Part shown: one piece after another, positions 42,285 through 51,676 of the stretch
Position numbering within the stretch: position 1 is the stretch's first letter
Layout: each line of letters begins with the position of its first letter
Assembly: GCA_023255965.1 (NCBI GenBank)
Contig: JAGDWE010000009.1
Coordinates: 1-55,513 of the forward strand
Source: Desulfurococcales archaeon
GTDB lineage: Archaea; Thermoproteota; Thermoprotei_A; Sulfolobales; NBVN01
DNA length: 55,513 nt
Reading direction: 5' to 3'
Program-made: the position numbers and the translations under genes
The notes under the pieces: generated by a model
Database searches by the model: none
Seen by the model: the letters and a program-made list of their open reading frames with translations, nothing else
What the model was told of the DNA's origin: nothing

Positions 42285-42851
42285 TTGCTGGGTGCCCTAA
42301 TAATGCACATCATAGTGATTTCCGACACTCACGATAATCTAGCAATGATAGATAGATCTTCATCGTTGATCTTTAAATTAGATCCAGAAATGATTATACA
42401 TTTAGGCGATTACGTATCCCCATTTACGTTGAGGAAGATATTGGATTTAGGTATAAAGTTCTTGGGAGTCTTCGGTAATAATGATGGTGATAAGTTATTA
42501 TTGAAGTTTACCTTGGGAGGTCGAGGCGAGCTTCATGAACCTCCCTACGAATTATCTATTGATGGACTAAAATTCTTATTAATCCATGGATTCGGAAGTC
42601 GTGAGTTAACTAACAAGTTAGTTAACTCCATAGCATCGGGAGGTGAGTACGATTTACTGTTATATGGTCATACTCATATACCTAGACTTGAGAAAGTAGG
42701 GAATACGGTAATATTAAATCCCGGAACTCTATCAGGATACTTAAGTGAGCTCCCGACCTTGGCTTACATCGATACAAGAGAATTAATTCCTAGAATTTTA
42801 AATGCATTAACTGGGGATCAGATTAAATATATCAAAATGCACGATACTTAA
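42285..42851 (+). CDS. MJ0936/YfcE-type metallophosphoesterase
   Basis: VISDTHDNLAMI, IHLGDYVS, GNNDGD, IHGFGSR, LLYGHTHIPRLE, LNPGTLSG. Confidence 0.95.
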   Translation: MLGALIMHIIVISDTHDNLAMIDRSSSLIFKLDPEMIIHLGDYVSPFTLRKILDLGIKFLGVFGNNDGDKLLLKFTLGGRGELHEPPYELSIDGLKFLLIHGFGSRELTNKLVNSIASGGEYDLLLYGHTHIPRLEKVGNTVILNPGTLSGYLSELPTLAYIDTRELIPRILNALTGDQIKYIKMHDT

Positions 42852-44590
42852 ATCTCGTGGTCAAGTTTGATCGGTATAGGTCTGGGGTCGGGCAGTATAC
42901 GTATTAATGCATCCCCCTTACTAAGTAATAACGTATAGTCCTTAATCTCTTCATAAGATATCCTCATATAGTTTGATAATTCCTTCCAGTAAAGGATGTC
43001 CGGCGATGGTAATGCTATAAATAAACCTATATTCTCTATGAGGTCCTTACCTAATTCGCCTAAGTCGTTAAGGGATTGCGTAGCCAGCGCTATTGAGATC
43101 CCATAACCCCTACCTAACTTAATTAACTTAATCAGTAATGGGACCTTATTAAACATGAATTGCCACGCCTCATCAATAACCACCTGAACCCTAGGTATAT
43201 GGCTTTCTCTAACCGTGTTCATATAAAGTAAGTTAATAACGTTAAAGAATGCGGCTACACTTAAATTTAGGTAATCTACGCCTAATGCACTAATATGCGA
43301 TAAATTAATTACCGTAATTGATTCTGAACTGCTTAATGCCTCAATAAGCGGTGGATCACATTCTAGCGTTTCTATGGTGTTAAATATACGCATTAATCTG
43401 TACTGAACATACTCATCATCAATACCTAATGTTAGATCCTTAGCAACCTCCCAGAAATTACTCAAGACCTCGTCCTGGAGTTCTGACGCCTCGCTAAGCA
43501 CCTTAAATAATGACGCCGTTAGCTCTCTGTCACCTTTTAAAATCATCGAATCACTTATTAATTCTGTGAGGAAAGCTGCCCTCAAGTTCTTAGGTATGTA
43601 TTTTAGTAAATCAACTATGCCTAGACCGATACTTACGCCCAGGTCAACTACCCAAGGCTTAAAACCCTTCATCAACAGCCTACCAACATACTCATTTTTA
43701 ACGTCAACGATGAACACCTTAGTTGAGTACGTAAGGTAAGTTCTCAGCAGTAGCGTTATTAAAGTCTCAGTCTTACCTATGCCTGAAGGACCTAGAACTA
43801 ATACGTGCGGGTTAAGGCAATTACCTATATTCCAGAAGATTTCCTCAGATGTAATTATATTATATCCTAGGTAAATTCCCTGGCTTCTTAGGTCAAATCT
43901 AGTCCTCGCATTTATTATGTGAGGGGCGAATAATGCTAATGTTGGTGATGCCATCTTAAAGGAGTACCTTAGCCTAAGTAATTTAGTAAGTATTAAATTA
44001 ACGAGCCTAGGTGGAAAACCTCGAAAAAATATGTGAAGTAATGCCATACCTTCAATGCCCTTTAGCTCAGAAGTAACTATGCCCAAGGATCCTAGGGTCT
44101 TCATAAGTAAATCCGCCCTAGAATTCAACGCGTTCACCACTTCGTCCTCAGAGGTACCACATGCTTCTACAGAGTAAAATACAATTAAATCGAATGGTTG
44201 TAGGCCATGCTTAGCTATTTTATCCCTAAGCTTACTGAGCTTCTCTAATTCCGTCTTAGCCTTAATGTTATTAGGGTTTACCTCAAGATCTATTAATAAG
44301 CTTTGAATCTTCTTATTTAACTCAGAGACAACTTTCTCCTTGCTTAATGGGGTAAATATCGATTTGATCTCTATAGGGAAGCCTAAATTCATGGAATTAA
44401 AGTATGTTTTTAAGTACTTTACTACTTCGTGATCGCTTAAGTCATTTATGGAAGTAACTACCTTATTTACCTTAATTACTTTCCTACCGCATAATTCGTT
44501 ATCTGGCCTACGAAACAGTATTATACCATTATTTAACACCTTAACTTCTTTTAAGCCTAAGTCTAGTACTGAGGCCTTCATATCTACCAA
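42848..44590 (-). CDS. VirB4/HerA-like ATPase
   Basis: HVLVLGPSGIGKTETLITLLLRTYL Walker A, VQVVIDEAWQFM Walker B, ALATQSLNDLG; VirB4-like N-terminal region. Confidence 0.85.
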   Translation of the reverse strand: MVDMKASVLDLGLKEVKVLNNGIILFRRPDNELCGRKVIKVNKVVTSINDLSDHEVVKYLKTYFNSMNLGFPIEIKSIFTPLSKEKVVSELNKKIQSLLIDLEVNPNNIKAKTELEKLSKLRDKIAKHGLQPFDLIVFYSVEACGTSEDEVVNALNSRADLLMKTLGSLGIVTSELKGIEGMALLHIFFRGFPPRLVNLILTKLLRLRYSFKMASPTLALFAPHIINARTRFDLRSQGIYLGYNIITSEEIFWNIGNCLNPHVLVLGPSGIGKTETLITLLLRTYLTYSTKVFIVDVKNEYVGRLLMKGFKPWVVDLGVSIGLGIVDLLKYIPKNLRAAFLTELISDSMILKGDRELTASLFKVLSEASELQDEVLSNFWEVAKDLTLGIDDEYVQYRLMRIFNTIETLECDPPLIEALSSSESITVINLSHISALGVDYLNLSVAAFFNVINLLYMNTVRESHIPRVQVVIDEAWQFMFNKVPLLIKLIKLGRGYGISIALATQSLNDLGELGKDLIENIGLFIALPSPDILYWKELSNYMRISYEEIKDYTLLLSKGDALIRILPDPRPIPIKLDHEI

Positions 44591-46944
44591 TTAATAATTA
44601 GGTTTTTAAGATGTAACGCAACACCGCACGCTAATTCCAGGCACTTTCTAAGTATCTCGCTATATTTAATCACGTATACATCCCTTACCCCGTTACCTAA
44701 TACTATTACCACTATATCATTAACTAAGTTATTTAAATCCAAAGATATCTCCCCAGCAAGCCCCTTAGATACATATGCGGCATTACCCACTAATGCTATT
44801 AAGGTGCTATCGTTCAAGAACTCATATATTAGTTTGATCTTAACTCCTTCAGATGTAATTGAGGGAACTAATAGTAGCTTCCTCAAGGGATTTACTTCGC
44901 TTATCTTTAGCTTAATTTCGTTGTCTACAAACCCATTAACGCACTTACGAATCAAATCCACCTTGACATTTAATTCGTTACTCGACTTAACATCAATAAG
45001 CACCAAATTGCTGCTATTAATTAATTGGCGCTTCACCCAGTGAAATGCGCCAATGCCGTAGCTGAATTCGAGAACTGCTGGAAGGCTACATTCCTCAATC
45101 ACTACGCTATTAATACCATTAAATTTCCTGCCATCTGCGCATGTAACTTGCACGCTAACGGGTATTTCCTTGTTAACAGAGTTGGTGAGGGTAAGCTTAT
45201 ACCTACATTCGTCTATGTACTCTAACGAATATGATATTATGCTGTAGGGATCGTTTATTAGATGTTCAGTAAGGTCTATGGTATATGCGGCGAGTACTTC
45301 GCTGCGATTAATCCATTCATACTCGATGAGCAATTGCAGGGTATTACTAAAAATCCGTAGCGAGTCCTCTAACTCTAACTCATTACGTCCAGGTCTAAGA
45401 ATATGTGAACGGGATTTAACTATTTGATTTCCTTCAACGTAATTTATAATTACCTTTAATTCCTCAGGCAAAGGATTGTATATTGATAGAAAGTACTTGA
45501 TGAGTAAGTTATCATCGCCATTATATAGCCTTCCATTGATTGAGTACTTAACTTCATTAATCTTCAAATCCAGGACTTCAGGCCTATTCACCATCACCTT
45601 AAAGATATTTGAGTACTTCGTTAGCATAAAGTCGATTATAGCCTTAAAACTGATTTCAACGCCCAGCTTAATAGGCTTTATGCTGTATTCCTTAATTAGG
45701 TCGTTATCTAGTGGGTTGCTTAGTAAGATTATAGGACCCTTAATAATTAACTGTGAAGGCTTACTCCACGGCATTATAACTAACCTCGGGTATCCCATGC
45801 TAGAATTAGCTTCTATACCCACGTATAGATCCCTTAAGTCCGTTAGATCGTAAATTAATACCTTACCTTCATACACACATACTAAGGCATCATTGATTAT
45901 ACTGCAATCCATCAATTTATATGATGCCATGTGGGCATTAACACTAAAGAGCTCTAGCGAGTTAGGAGTGCGGAATGCGATGTAGTTGGTTCCTACACTT
46001 CCATCAATAACCCTGAGGTCGCTAATTAACCTCCAAATGTTATTATTGAGTATGTAGGGGCGACTATTTAGTATAATAATCAATTCACCGCCAGGGAGGT
46101 AGCCTACAACCCTTGGACTGACGGCAAATATTAAAGGCCTTAACTCCTTTCCATTGAATTCCATGAGTAGGTTATGTTGCTGACTATGAAGCAAGTATCT
46201 ACCGCCGATATCTACTAACGGGAACGCATTAAGCGGTATCCTTAATAAATTGTTGAAAGATATTAAGTAAGATCCCTCAACGCAATTGATGAATCCAAGG
46301 CAATCACCTACTAGCACATCATTAACTTCATGACACTTACTTAACTCATACAGCTTATGTATATTTAAGTTCTTATGATTCAATAACGCAAATAACTTCC
46401 TATCACGTTTGAAGACGAGCAACGATGTAGTTTTTGATTCATAATATCTAACGTAATCTACCTCGATAGGTGATTTCCTGATCAAAGGTGATATTAGGTA
46501 CTTAGTTCCATTACTCTTCGTTAGAACCAGTGATGGACCATAGAAACCCTCCACGGCAACACCTTTAAATGATTTAAGGATCCATTCCTCCTCATTAGAG
46601 CGTAGGTCGTATAGCGACACGCCATCACTATATACGTTTATCAACATATCATTATATGCGAAGTAAGTCTTAGCGTAAAACCTTAATAATGATCCGTCAC
46701 CGAGAATTACCTTAGATGAGTCGCCTTCATGAAGGATCCATAATCCGCTAATGTATGTAGTTAAATTATCATTAATTACTAGCTTAGGCACTTCGGCAAA
46801 GCTCCTAAGATAAGGCTTAATTATTATCTTATTAAAGCTCATACTCTTTAATAAAAGCCACCTACTAAGCGCTCTATCATCTACGTATTGATTTTTAAAG
46901 TAATCACGTAGATCCAAGTGATGCTTAAGGATAGGGAGCTTCAT
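44584..46944 (-). CDS. Uncharacterised large beta-rich (propeller-like) protein of pilus locus
   Basis: 786 aa, repeated short beta motifs; overlaps start of VirB4-like gene by 7 nt. Confidence 0.65.
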   Translation of the reverse strand: MKLPILKHHLDLRDYFKNQYVDDRALSRWLLLKSMSFNKIIIKPYLRSFAEVPKLVINDNLTTYISGLWILHEGDSSKVILGDGSLLRFYAKTYFAYNDMLINVYSDGVSLYDLRSNEEEWILKSFKGVAVEGFYGPSLVLTKSNGTKYLISPLIRKSPIEVDYVRYYESKTTSLLVFKRDRKLFALLNHKNLNIHKLYELSKCHEVNDVLVGDCLGFINCVEGSYLISFNNLLRIPLNAFPLVDIGGRYLLHSQQHNLLMEFNGKELRPLIFAVSPRVVGYLPGGELIIILNSRPYILNNNIWRLISDLRVIDGSVGTNYIAFRTPNSLELFSVNAHMASYKLMDCSIINDALVCVYEGKVLIYDLTDLRDLYVGIEANSSMGYPRLVIMPWSKPSQLIIKGPIILLSNPLDNDLIKEYSIKPIKLGVEISFKAIIDFMLTKYSNIFKVMVNRPEVLDLKINEVKYSINGRLYNGDDNLLIKYFLSIYNPLPEELKVIINYVEGNQIVKSRSHILRPGRNELELEDSLRIFSNTLQLLIEYEWINRSEVLAAYTIDLTEHLINDPYSIISYSLEYIDECRYKLTLTNSVNKEIPVSVQVTCADGRKFNGINSVVIEECSLPAVLEFSYGIGAFHWVKRQLINSSNLVLIDVKSSNELNVKVDLIRKCVNGFVDNEIKLKISEVNPLRKLLLVPSITSEGVKIKLIYEFLNDSTLIALVGNAAYVSKGLAGEISLDLNNLVNDIVVIVLGNGVRDVYVIKYSEILRKCLELACGVALHLKNLIINW

Positions 46945-46948
46945 AAAA

Positions 46949-48451
46949 TTAACCCAGCATAAGTGCCAGGATTAACATAGCTATACCGGTAATTAGAGTG
47001 TTACCTAAGGAGTCATATAGTGTATAGTCAACGTATAGTGAGTACCAAGTAACAATCACGTAAATTAAGACCATGTAGTTCATTAACTTAACATTGGCTA
47101 AAGTCGCCATGGACGTAAGCAACCACGGCATTATCAATGACATCATCATGAGCGGGAGTAAACTCACTATATAGTGCTTAAAGTCCTCGATCATATCTAG
47201 GGTCAATGTTCTCAAATTAAGCAATTGCTCCTTACTTAGATTGCCGTTGACTAATGACCTAACTATTATGTAGTATGTATACCTTCCTAACCACGATCTG
47301 ATAGCTGGGAGATTATCCTTTAAATTGTTTAGGTTTAACTTAGATCCTAGCCTTCTTAAACTCCTCGATCTACACGTCATTAAAACTTCTTTAAAGCCCT
47401 TTAACGGGTTTACCAGGATATATGGTGTCTCAGCATATAATGAAATTACCTTAGGTAATTCGCTGACTTCTGTAATTACTTCAATAAAATCACGTAAATT
47501 GAGGATGCCGTTTATGATTAGAAGGACTGATGATGTAAGTAACGCGTGCTTGATTACTGGTTGATCAAGCATAGACAGCGATAGGGGGATGATAAATAGT
47601 GTTACCATGTATATGACTATGTTTTTTAGCTTAAAAATGATGCTATTATTATTTACTAATGTCTTAAGATGTAACGTCTTCCCGGGCATGAAAATCAATA
47701 TTGGTATGATGGTGGCTAAAAAGAATATTGATGGAACCGCTTCGATAGCTCCTGAAATTATTGATAAGGATACCATTAGTGAAGGTAAGTAACTTAACAG
47801 TACTCCGGCTATTAGCGAAATTGTAGTCCTTAATTGAATTGATGTCTTAGCATCGCCTCTTAATTTATGTAGCAATTCGTTAGACGTATTAAGTAGCCAT
47901 GCATTAACCACTCCCTTAGATAGCGCTAACACATAATCACTAAGTAACCTATTGACGTACTTCGAAGCTGAGTACTTAATATACGTATTTATAGCCTCCG
48001 TCACTGTTAAGAAGCTTCTAAATACCCTTAATCTCAGCCCCTCAACAACCAATTCCTTAAATACGTGCTCCCATCCGCTCAATTCGCATAGATCGTTTAC
48101 TAACTCCGTTGAATAAGTGTATATAGCTGCCTCTGAGATTATGAAGTAAGCTAATTCCTCCTCCACCTTCTTCCTCCTTACCCTCACAATATAGCTGTAG
48201 CTTAGGTAAGGAAGCATCATGGATGTTAGGGCTGCGGAAGGTATCGCAAGTGCGGTTAATGTTACATAGGTCGCTACTGTAAATCCAAGCATATAGTTTA
48301 ACACGATAATTAACACAGTGACTACTAGTACTGAGGCAGTGATGTATTTGAGAAGCATCGATTTTAAGTCTCTAACACCGGCCCTTGTTAACCCAGCTTT
48401 AACTCTAAGATCCTGTATTAACTCTAGGTATTTATTAATGTAATTCCTCAT
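46949..48451 (-). CDS. TadC/FlaJ-type type IV pilus platform protein
   Basis: 500 aa, two T2SSF-like halves with TM clusters; immediately downstream of TadA-like ATPase. Confidence 0.8.
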   Translation of the reverse strand: MRNYINKYLELIQDLRVKAGLTRAGVRDLKSMLLKYITASVLVVTVLIIVLNYMLGFTVATYVTLTALAIPSAALTSMMLPYLSYSYIVRVRRKKVEEELAYFIISEAAIYTYSTELVNDLCELSGWEHVFKELVVEGLRLRVFRSFLTVTEAINTYIKYSASKYVNRLLSDYVLALSKGVVNAWLLNTSNELLHKLRGDAKTSIQLRTTISLIAGVLLSYLPSLMVSLSIISGAIEAVPSIFFLATIIPILIFMPGKTLHLKTLVNNNSIIFKLKNIVIYMVTLFIIPLSLSMLDQPVIKHALLTSSVLLIINGILNLRDFIEVITEVSELPKVISLYAETPYILVNPLKGFKEVLMTCRSRSLRRLGSKLNLNNLKDNLPAIRSWLGRYTYYIIVRSLVNGNLSKEQLLNLRTLTLDMIEDFKHYIVSLLPLMMMSLIMPWLLTSMATLANVKLMNYMVLIYVIVTWYSLYVDYTLYDSLGNTLITGIAMLILALMLG

Positions 48452-48452
48452 A

Positions 48453-51116
48453 TCAAATCCTATTTGAAGTTATATCCTTATTAGGAGAATTAAAACCCCT
48501 GACTTTAACGCTCTTCCTAAATAACTCCTCCTCTGTAACTTCATCACCAAACGTGTATAGATTATTTAATACTATACTGTCAGTTTCCTCATCATATATC
48601 GGTTCATCAACGCTAACTACAGCTCTTTTAAGGCTCTTACCATGGTATACGTAATTAACTGTTATGAAGGTCCAGAACATGCTTACCTGATACGGGCTTA
48701 AATTTATCGGAGGCCCTGTAAGCCTCATCAATGCCTCCTTAACGTTCCCCCCATGAAATGTTGTATTATGTGTTAGTATGAGGGACCCTGATATAGCATA
48801 GATATGTGTTTCAGGTACCTCAATATCGTAGAGAAGGCTTTCCTTCTCCACTACTTCTACCTTCTTCACCCTTAATAGCAGGAGTTTTCCTCTCAACCCT
48901 TTATCATGCTTTGGCTTTCCATGCATCTTAATGTTCGCATAATTCATGTAAGCGATATTATCTACATTATCTAGGAGGTCGAGGATTTCAAATGCCTTTT
49001 GCTCGTATTCACCTCCACGGATATGAATGAGGTATGTAGCACCTCCGTTTACAGAGCATCCACGTTTCCTCAGACGAACATCTGCAACTATTCCTAAGCT
49101 CCTTAATATGAGATATAAGCTTTCAGCAAGCCTTCTATTAGCGGTCTTTACTGTAATACCACTGCCCTTCCTTGTACGAATGGCACCTGCATCGAAATAT
49201 CCCTCAATTATACCTACTCTAAAATCCTCAGGCGCTCTAAGAGCTAAATCCAGCGGTACACATCTATTGTGCTCATGTACCCTACCATCCAGTAACCCCA
49301 CCAGGAACCTCGTGAAAATCGATGAGCGAATGAGAATGCGAGCAACATTACCACTATCATAGATAGAGATCGCGTCCTTTAGCCCTAGTTCCTCCAAGGC
49401 ATGTAATATCTTCTTTTGCTTCCATGAAGCGTCTACACTCATATTGAACGTTACTCTGACGGGGATCCCATACTCGTCATGCTCTACATCACCACTTACG
49501 AGGAAGGACCCTATGAGATAGCCTAGATCCTTGCTTAACTTTACTATATATGGGAAGGGGGGTTCTTGACTAGATGTGTTAGCATGGATTACGAGGTCCT
49601 TAAGCTTACGCCCATCGTATTCCCTCCCCCTTAAGATCGCATCTGCATCCTTAGCAGACATGCATTTACTTTGAGTCTCACTTTTATCACAGATTACCAA
49701 AGATCTCTTGTAGTCGTCTTCTAAGTAATCCATTGTTATTACGTAGCGCATAGTTGTCGGGCCAAGCTGTGGAGGATGAGGAAGTGATATGAGTATGTCC
49801 CCAGGTTTAAGATCTTTTGCAGGTTTTGTAATAGATTTCCCTTTCTCGTACACTATGACCGAATGTTCCTCATGAACTTCGTGAACAACTCCCCCACTAA
49901 CATGTATTCTTACAAACCTACGGCTACCGTCCTTGATTATCGCCCTCGATATAGGTACCCATCTGGCAACTCCTTTCACGTCCCCAGTAACAACCTCCAC
50001 GTGTTTATACTTCCCATTAATCACACCCTCAACTACGTCGCCAATTTCATATAGATCTACTTTACCATCGACTTTTGCAAGGACAAGCTGATCCTTAGGT
50101 AAGCATAGTCCGCCTAAGCCCATGTTCATTGCTTGAACTAATACCTGAGCTTCGCTCCCCCTAGTCTCACCTATTACTATGTATCTACTTACCGATGCCC
50201 TTAGTGCTGCCTTAGATAACGTAAATTGATCTAAGAAATTATTTGGGACGGTTGATGTAGGCACTATATACCTAACCCAGTTACTCTTAGGCGGTGGATC
50301 GATCTCAGGAGTGTCTTCTATAATGACTATCTTCCAGGTCTGTGGTATGCATTCGTACAGTATCGCCCTAAGTAATGTCGTTTTACCCGAGCCCGGAGGC
50401 CCTAAAATTACTATACTACCCCTCGATCTGATCACGGCATTTATGTACTTAACTAAAGCTCTAGGCAAAGTTCCCTCACTAATTAACGAATTTAAACTTA
50501 TGCCGCCATAGTTTCTCTTCTTCCTAATGGTTATCTCAGGTCTATCTAAGCTTACCTCAGGTAGCACTAAGTGCACCCTATGACCTCCATCTACATCAGG
50601 GAGGTTGGCATCCAAAATGGGGTATGACTTAGATATTATCTTACCCGCCTTCTCCGAAAATAAATTGATATACCTAAGGACTTCCTCAACATCGCTTAAA
50701 ACTATATTCGTAGGTATATAATCAGCCTCCGGATCAATTCTTAAGACCTTACTATGTCTAACCCATATAGGGCCGGGACCTACGACTGTTATATCTTCAA
50801 TGTAGGGATCATCAATTAATACTTGGAACTTCTTATACTTAAGTTCCTTCCTTAGTACATAAAGGACGCTTATGAAATCTTCATTACTAATGCCCAAGAC
50901 CTCTGAAACAGCCTTAGATAATATTAAATCATTTAATTCGCAATTATATGGTATTGAGGTAAGTATCTTATCCATATTCCTAAGGACTAACTCCTCAACG
51001 TCCTTGCCCAGGAATTCCTCAACAACGTATTGATAGCTATTACCGTACTTAATTATCTTGATGTTAGATATGCCTACATTATATTCATCAATAACCTCAG
51101 CCTTGAGCCCGGTCAT
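48453..51116 (-). CDS. TadA/FlaI/GspE-type secretion ATPase interrupted by an intein
   Basis: VILGPPGSGKTTLLRAI Walker A, IIEDTPEIDPP, YIVIGETRGSEAQVLVQAMNMGLGGL | intein | TTFHGGNVKEALMRL. Confidence 0.95.
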   Translation of the reverse strand: MTGLKAEVIDEYNVGISNIKIIKYGNSYQYVVEEFLGKDVEELVLRNMDKILTSIPYNCELNDLILSKAVSEVLGISNEDFISVLYVLRKELKYKKFQVLIDDPYIEDITVVGPGPIWVRHSKVLRIDPEADYIPTNIVLSDVEEVLRYINLFSEKAGKIISKSYPILDANLPDVDGGHRVHLVLPEVSLDRPEITIRKKRNYGGISLNSLISEGTLPRALVKYINAVIRSRGSIVILGPPGSGKTTLLRAILYECIPQTWKIVIIEDTPEIDPPPKSNWVRYIVPTSTVPNNFLDQFTLSKAALRASVSRYIVIGETRGSEAQVLVQAMNMGLGGLCLPKDQLVLAKVDGKVDLYEIGDVVEGVINGKYKHVEVVTGDVKGVARWVPISRAIIKDGSRRFVRIHVSGGVVHEVHEEHSVIVYEKGKSITKPAKDLKPGDILISLPHPPQLGPTTMRYVITMDYLEDDYKRSLVICDKSETQSKCMSAKDADAILRGREYDGRKLKDLVIHANTSSQEPPFPYIVKLSKDLGYLIGSFLVSGDVEHDEYGIPVRVTFNMSVDASWKQKKILHALEELGLKDAISIYDSGNVARILIRSSIFTRFLVGLLDGRVHEHNRCVPLDLALRAPEDFRVGIIEGYFDAGAIRTRKGSGITVKTANRRLAESLYLILRSLGIVADVRLRKRGCSVNGGATYLIHIRGGEYEQKAFEILDLLDNVDNIAYMNYANIKMHGKPKHDKGLRGKLLLLRVKKVEVVEKESLLYDIEVPETHIYAISGSLILTHNTTFHGGNVKEALMRLTGPPINLSPYQVSMFWTFITVNYVYHGKSLKRAVVSVDEPIYDEETDSIVLNNLYTFGDEVTEEELFRKSVKVRGFNSPNKDITSNRI
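48765..50105 (-). other. Intein (aa 338-784 of host ORF, ~447 aa) with degenerate LAGLIDADG endonuclease domain
   Basis: Starts CLPKDQLVLAKVDGK, block B-like HEVHEEHSVIVY, ends YDIEVPETHIYAISGSLILTHN followed by +1 Thr. Confidence 0.95.
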
Positions 51117-51151
51117 AATCCCACTAAAAAATAGTGTTTATTTTTACCCTG

Positions 51152-51676
51152 CTACTTAACTACCACTTTGACTACGTAATTATTACCTAAAATGTCCTTA
51201 ACCTCAAGTATTACGACGGAGATCCTTGAAGTGATGTTAGGTAGTGTTATAAGCAACGTAGCTTCATCACCTGGGCTTAGTATTGATTTACCTGAGATTC
51301 TCGTTGCTGAAGTATTGATGGTGCCACCGTCTTCAAATACTATTGTGGCATTGACATGATTGCTTAGATCTAAGTCCTTACCTCCTTTATTAGCTAAGCT
51401 CAGCACCATGGTTACGTTGTTATTTCTGTAATCCATAGCCACGATGTTTGCAACTAATTCGGGCGCTACCGAATATCCATATGCCTTACTTACTTGTGAG
51501 GATAGCCAATTTTGAACTGCAAGGGTTACTGGAATAGCTACTGCTATTAGAGCAAGAACTATTATCAGGTCACTCACACCTAACCTGATTTTGTTGACTG
51601 AGCATTTGCGGGCTACCATATTAACACCCCCGTTACTTTCAATAAACTTATAAAGTGTTCTTGAATCCACAACCAA
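51152..51676 (-). CDS. Type IV pilin/archaellin-like protein with class III signal peptide; likely start at 51619
   Basis: MVARKCSVNKIRLG-VSDLIIVLALIAVAIPVTLAVQNWL prepilin-like N-terminus. Confidence 0.75.
   Translation of the reverse strand: MVVDSRTLYKFIESNGGVNMVARKCSVNKIRLGVSDLIIVLALIAVAIPVTLAVQNWLSSQVSKAYGYSVAPELVANIVAMDYRNNNVTMVLSLANKGGKDLDLSNHVNATIVFEDGGTINTSATRISGKSILSPGDEATLLITLPNITSRISVVILEVKDILGNNYVVKVVVK

Follow-up and report, generated by a model that had tools for sequence, protein, structure and literature searches.

An operon outside Sulfolobaceae that joins Ups-like type IV pilus genes with the gene of a CedB-family DNA-import ATPase

According to the prevailing view, archaeal DNA exchange requires two separate systems, Ced, which imports the DNA, and the Ups pili, which bring cells into contact and are described as lacking in archaea other than Sulfolobales. 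Sulfolobus cells are aggregated by their Ups pili, CedA and CedB are required solely for import (PMC11868833, PMC9905601), and the two systems cooperate (PMC9905601). The UV-inducible ups genes of Sulfolobaceae, which encode a mating pilus, are arranged in the order upsX-upsE-upsF-upsA-upsB, and the Ced components described in Sulfolobales are CedA, CedA1, CedA2, CedB and CedD. UpsX of Sulfolobus, whose importance for DNA transfer is all that has been known about its role since 2013, is a cytosolic protein that partially shifts to the membrane after UV, and deletion of upsX leaves pili and aggregation intact and cuts DNA transfer by about one half (PMC3892339; the corrigendum PMC5221435 is about another strain). 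Among open papers, UpsX and CedB were mentioned together only in PMC11868833, which describes the Ups genes as absent from other Crenarchaea and treats UpsX and CedB as belonging to separate systems, and the main text of the 2016 census of archaeal type IV pili contained no mention of VirB4 or Ced. In the searchable open papers, neither a joint operon nor its occurrence beyond Sulfolobaceae nor the pairing of UpsX with CedB appears to have been reported.

The window analyzed here, a stretch of 55,513 nt, is contig C1 of a genome of 1.22 Mb that is 80% complete. The first-pass annotation had spoken of Thermoproteales; the genome is placed instead in the GTDB order Sulfolobales, together with S. 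acidocaldarius. Genome G042, which we take to be S. acidocaldarius, represents family f11 (Sulfolobaceae). Among the genomes sampled, the order contains Sulfolobaceae and also Ignisphaera aggregans (G002; PMC3035270). Family f1 is the window's own family, the named members of which were hot-spring MAGs such as KUA_Bin18, SKW299 and SKW88 (six named MAGs in a CedB-alignment scan of contigs), and f2 and f4 are further families with an UpsX-like/CedB pair. As first described, five genes lie in close succession on the minus strand of the window, in the order pilin, TadA with an intein, TadC, a 786-aa UpsX-like protein and CedB; consecutive genes are spaced by 35 nt, 1 nt and 4 nt, and the last two overlap by 7 nt. 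We put at roughly 70% the probability that the locus is an intercellular DNA-exchange operon in which an Ups-like type IV pilus is combined with the Ced import motor. The DNA-uptake role suggested in the first-pass annotation thus remains the best reading of the operon; the accompanying idea of a previously unknown hybrid of two secretion logics was not borne out, the parts corresponding to Ups and Ced, two known systems that cooperate. Components of all these kinds have been described before; the novelty lies in the union of Ups-like and Ced genes in one operon, in its occurrence beyond Sulfolobaceae, and in a beta-rich protein that proves UpsX-like and linked with CedB.

The first gene encodes an UpsA-like type IV pilin (51152-51619, minus strand). 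It had initially been annotated at 51152-51676; the gene was confirmed, whereas its TTG start at 51676 is probably too early and the ATG at 51619 is very probably the true start, judging from the sequence. The product carries a class III signal peptide in which KIRLG is followed by VSDLIIVLALIAVAIPV, and the motif (R/K)G-(V/I/L)S(D/E)L is common to 17 operons. Located 28 nt upstream of this ATG is a TATA-like box, TTTATAAG (51647-51654, minus strand), which is conserved in both closest relatives having that stretch (L051 and L053; conserved block AACACTTTATAAGT) and is the probable single promoter of the operon. The UV-promoter hexamer of Sulfolobus, ANTTTC, showed no enrichment upstream of the operons (4 of 19 upstream regions versus 3.3 expected); induction may nonetheless occur without a Sulfolobus motif. 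The pilin profile matched Sulfolobaceae UpsA with 90.5% in hhalign (E = 1.4e-6) versus 7.5% for UpsB, and the window operon possesses one pilin, closest to UpsA, instead of the UpsA and UpsB pair.

The pilus assembly ATPase, of the TadA/FlaI type and UpsE-like (48453-51116, minus strand), scored 176 bits with the FlaI model, 104 bits with BasE and 50 bits with Pfam T2SSE. An intein of 447 aa (48765-50105, minus strand; residues 338-784), bounded by Cys1 and His-Asn/Thr and including a LAGLIDADG homing endonuclease (Pfam Intein_splicing and LAGLIDADG_3), was excised in silico for comparisons. Its site, between GG[L/M] and TT.HGG, is conserved and was occupied in 7 of the 16 operon ATPases of f1; the pilus ATPases of the close relatives L051 and L053 have no intein. 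All operon ATPases fell into one clade of the pilus-ATPase tree (100/100), and Sulfolobaceae UpsE was found on a long branch, a position compatible with orthology that constitutes no proof of it. With the operon TadA as query, UpsE was the best match in most Sulfolobaceae genomes, and the neighbors at the loci so reached were UpsX and UpsF by NCBIfam. With Sulfolobaceae UpsE as query, two paralogues of the source genome, on C16 and C14, outscored the operon TadA, so that orthology by reciprocal best hit failed; the pilus is therefore called Ups-like and not filed as Ups, and may represent a type sister to Ups instead of being Ups proper.

The TadC-type membrane platform (46949-48451, minus strand) is related to UpsF: its family profile scored 57.9 bits against Sulfolobaceae UpsF and no more than 3.5 bits against other Sulfolobaceae platforms, and the family aligned with UpsF over 447 columns (hhalign 97.2%, E = 3.4e-11; 93.6% when depth-matched). 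Aap pili, the bindosome and the archaellum share the TadA/TadC assembly pair with the window locus; unlike it, they have no UpsX or CedB, and the profiles of their platforms gave no match to TadC of the window (0.6% to 9% in hhalign).

The family of the 786-aa protein (44584-46944, minus strand) matched Sulfolobaceae UpsX, for which reference sequences verified with NF046072 were used, with 97.3% (E = 2.4e-11), and the enlarged family did so over 647 columns, the whole length, with 99.2% (E = 1.1e-19), unrelated controls reaching 0.1%. These profile comparisons identify the protein as a remote UpsX homologue. Its predicted layout comprises an N-terminal WD40-like beta-propeller (about residues 1-372), tandem beta-sandwich domains and a C-terminal helix (AlphaFold pLDDT 83.8). 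The propeller resembled many generic WD40-like propellers in the PDB with Z of 10-11, in a comparison that barely covered the C-terminal half; in the model it has a fold typical of scaffolds, such likeness in itself showing no function. Neither a signal peptide nor a transmembrane segment was found in the protein, which rules out a secreted UpsX, the Sulfolobus protein being cytosolic. The corresponding protein of f2 had weak sequence likeness to UpsX (93.9%, E = 1.6e-7) and the same predicted layout of propeller, beta-sandwiches and C-terminal helix. A phylum-wide alignment search for UpsX-like proteins was insensitive, the first look having missed UpsX of S. acidocaldarius and of most Sulfolobaceae; absence from its results therefore means little. 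The window operon thus resembles ups in having a full-length UpsX homologue, an UpsF-related platform, a TadA-type ATPase, an UpsA-like pilin and an operon organization, whereas it differs in gene order (pilin-E-F-X-cedB), in the single pilin, in an ATPase that is not the reciprocal best hit of UpsE, in including cedB and in lying outside Sulfolobaceae.

The product of the last gene (42848-44590, minus strand), a VirB4-type DNA-translocating ATPase, scored 263 bits with the NCBIfam CedB model NF041017 (residues 37-578 against 76-588 of 590), versus 21 bits with HerA, over the P-loop only, and at most 48 bits with VirB4 models; hhalign against Sulfolobaceae CedB gave 100% (E = 7e-70, 520 columns). 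The 263 bits lie below the equivalog cut-off of 700 bits (S. acidocaldarius CedB, 823), as all CedB, CedA and CedD matches of the source genome lie below the respective NCBIfam cut-offs, the models being trained on Sulfolobaceae. Since this appears to hold for the CedB model, the ATPase is termed a divergent member of the CedB family, and as such is assigned as CedB, the DNA-import motor of Ced. An ATPase-domain tree that took in CedB and CedD and left out HerA and VirB4 united the operon CedBs of three families with Sulfolobaceae CedBs in one branch (100/98), with CedD separate (100/100); Sulfolobaceae CedB was sister to the operon CedBs of f2 and f4 (96/96), and CedBs encoded beside cedA formed a clade apart.

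Given the generic DUF87/AAA_10 domains and the weak VirB4 matches, the ATPase could be read as a HerA-like repair helicase or as the VirB4 of a conjugative element, and the locus as unrelated to Ced. That is hardly credible: both identities were rejected on the scores and on the grouping with CedB in the tree, and there was no adjacent NurA or conjugation gene and no relaxase or mobile-element signature seen. Clustering with HerA, named in the first-pass annotation as the point to check, thus turned out against HerA, and its assignment of the ATPase to the VirB4/Ced group, in an operon with both motor parts of a type IV pilus, stands. The Ted system of Thermoproteales likewise has a VirB4-type ATPase and a pilus for DNA transfer; the Ted pilus, however, is built of the T4SS-type TedC without TadA/TadC, and the window ATPase is of the CedB and not the TedB type. 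In many genera of f2 and f4, two separate genes encode CedB, one for the VirB4-like N-terminal domain (about 190-210 aa) and one for the ATPase (about 350-400 aa), for example at L067 8487-10245, L048 9475-11179, L070 8965-10669 and L121-L127.

Other Ced components were found elsewhere in the genome. CedA is encoded at C16:5067-6434 (minus strand; L120) and scored 157 bits, and just upstream of it lies the gene of a CedA1-like pilin, an 87-aa two-helix protein matching the CedA1 structure of Aeropyrum pernix (8dfu; E = 9.1e-23). C17 encodes a CedD-like ATPase (100 bits) that begins with a membrane domain. CedA was present in nearly all tested relatives with the operon, usually beside a CedA1-like gene. 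The CedA of the source genome has about 455 aa versus 260, the same length recurring in relatives, and toward its C terminus it weakly resembles a carboxypeptidase-regulatory-like (beta-sandwich) domain (E = 8e-5). Compared with Ced, therefore, the window genome shares a CedB-family ATPase together with CedA, CedA1 and a CedD-like protein encoded elsewhere, and differs in this longer CedA, in a CedB without the N-terminal transmembrane hairpin of Sulfolobaceae CedB, and in the location of cedB in a pilus operon, whereas cedB stands alone in Sulfolobaceae and beside cedA in five other families.

The gene order, uniqueness of which to this genome had been raised as a concern, recurs with the same tight spacing in 20 further loci, one of them truncated where its contig ends, the proteins being about 15% to 60% identical, and its retention across loci so divergent is more than chance. 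The full operon, pilin-TadA-TadC-X-CedB on one strand with genes mostly overlapping, was present in 16 f1 and four f4 genomes, and a 17th f1 copy was cut by a contig end; in the L058 operon the pilin was not called. An X-like gene directly preceded cedB in all 30 inspected CedB loci of f1, f2 and f4, the downstream gene usually overlapping, and in f4 and f2 it still precedes the split cedB. It did so in none of six Sulfolobaceae loci, where ups is elsewhere, and in none of eight loci in f3, f7, f8, f9 and f10, where cedA precedes cedB. At these eight loci (L128-L135), in which cedA is directly before cedB, a CedD-like ATPase with many transmembrane segments was often nearby.

By analogy, the window operon would work like Sulfolobus Ups and Ced. 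Pilin, UpsE-like ATPase, UpsF-like platform, UpsX and CedB would be made together from one promoter, the pilus would keep like cells in contact, CedA1 and CedA, the genes of which lie elsewhere, would form a conduit and a membrane channel, and CedB would hydrolyze ATP so that DNA is pulled in for recombinational repair. As the window CedB lacks the membrane hairpin, something must bring it to the membrane. We infer that UpsX binds CedB as an adaptor, a cytoplasmic beta-propeller/beta-sandwich protein that would dock CedB at the CedA/CedA1 channel or at the pilus base. UpsX would thereby gain a concrete candidate partner, CedB, in addition to a predicted fold.

The pilus genes and the UpsX-CedB pair might instead be two functionally separate modules under a shared promoter, an adhesion pilus (pilin, TadA and TadC) and an import device that are co-regulated without physical cooperation. 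The modules do part in evolution, UpsX-like/CedB occurring without an adjacent pilus in Ignisphaera-type genomes and pilus with UpsX occurring without CedB in Desulfurococcus-type genomes. Thus, in nine f2 genomes, including Ignisphaera aggregans, the X-like gene either overlaps the split cedB or directly adjoins it, and adjacent pilus genes were missing in eight of the nine; conversely, pilus and UpsX without CedB were found in the Desulfurococcus-like genomes G041 (presumably Desulfurococcus mucosus) and G009 and in G008 and G012. As G041 and G008 have UpsX and pilus without a CedB hit, UpsX is not tied to CedB everywhere. Separate modules are nevertheless unlikely in our judgment, since the genes overlap in 21 operons across deep divergence, since an UpsX-family gene was present, mostly within about 40 kb, in all six genomes that have the pilus ATPase clade but no adjacent CedB (G008, G009, G012, G024, G041 and G124), and since Ups and Ced cooperate in Sulfolobus (PMC9905601). 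Judging from the counter-cases, UpsX accompanies the pilus in certain lineages and CedB in others; pilus and CedB are both present in the full operon. At L136 1709-9089 of G012, which has no CedB and no CedA, a VirB4-like ATPase (109 bits, CD1110 family) lies beside UpsX, pilin(s) and a pilus ATPase. G024 has two X paralogues in one genome, a cluster of pilin, ATPase, platform and an apparently shortened UpsX of 389 aa (L150 6047-10902) being located about 10 kb from an X-like/CedB pair.

Having a pilus and a DNA motor in one operon would also fit uptake of the natural-transformation type, in which the pilus captures free DNA and CedB takes the place of the usual ComEC route. Bacterial type IV pili do capture free DNA. 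This is nonetheless quite improbable for the window operon, as no second, retraction-type ATPase occurs in the locus, CedA1 and CedA, the conduit for cell-to-cell transfer, are present, and the Ups relatives act in aggregation. Exchange between cells by an Ups-like pilus and the Ced motor accordingly keeps our preference.

Because Sulfolobaceae CedB nests beside the operon CedBs of f2 and f4 in one tree, the linkage is probably older than Sulfolobaceae and was lost there. We infer an ancestral joint operon that Sulfolobaceae have since broken up. On the stronger proposition, that UpsX serves CedB as a dedicated partner and that ups and ced, now apart in Sulfolobus, arose when an ancestral operon encoding mating pilus and DNA importer as a single machine fell into two, our judgment is evenly balanced. 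In other families, Ups-like and Ced genes are physically joined, which points to a derived arrangement in Sulfolobus and to DNA exchange among uncultured relatives as well. Convergent with cedB in the window is a gene for a YfcE-type phosphodiesterase (42285-42851, plus strand), and the same neighbor is retained in seven other f1 genomes, indicating that the locus has long been in place.
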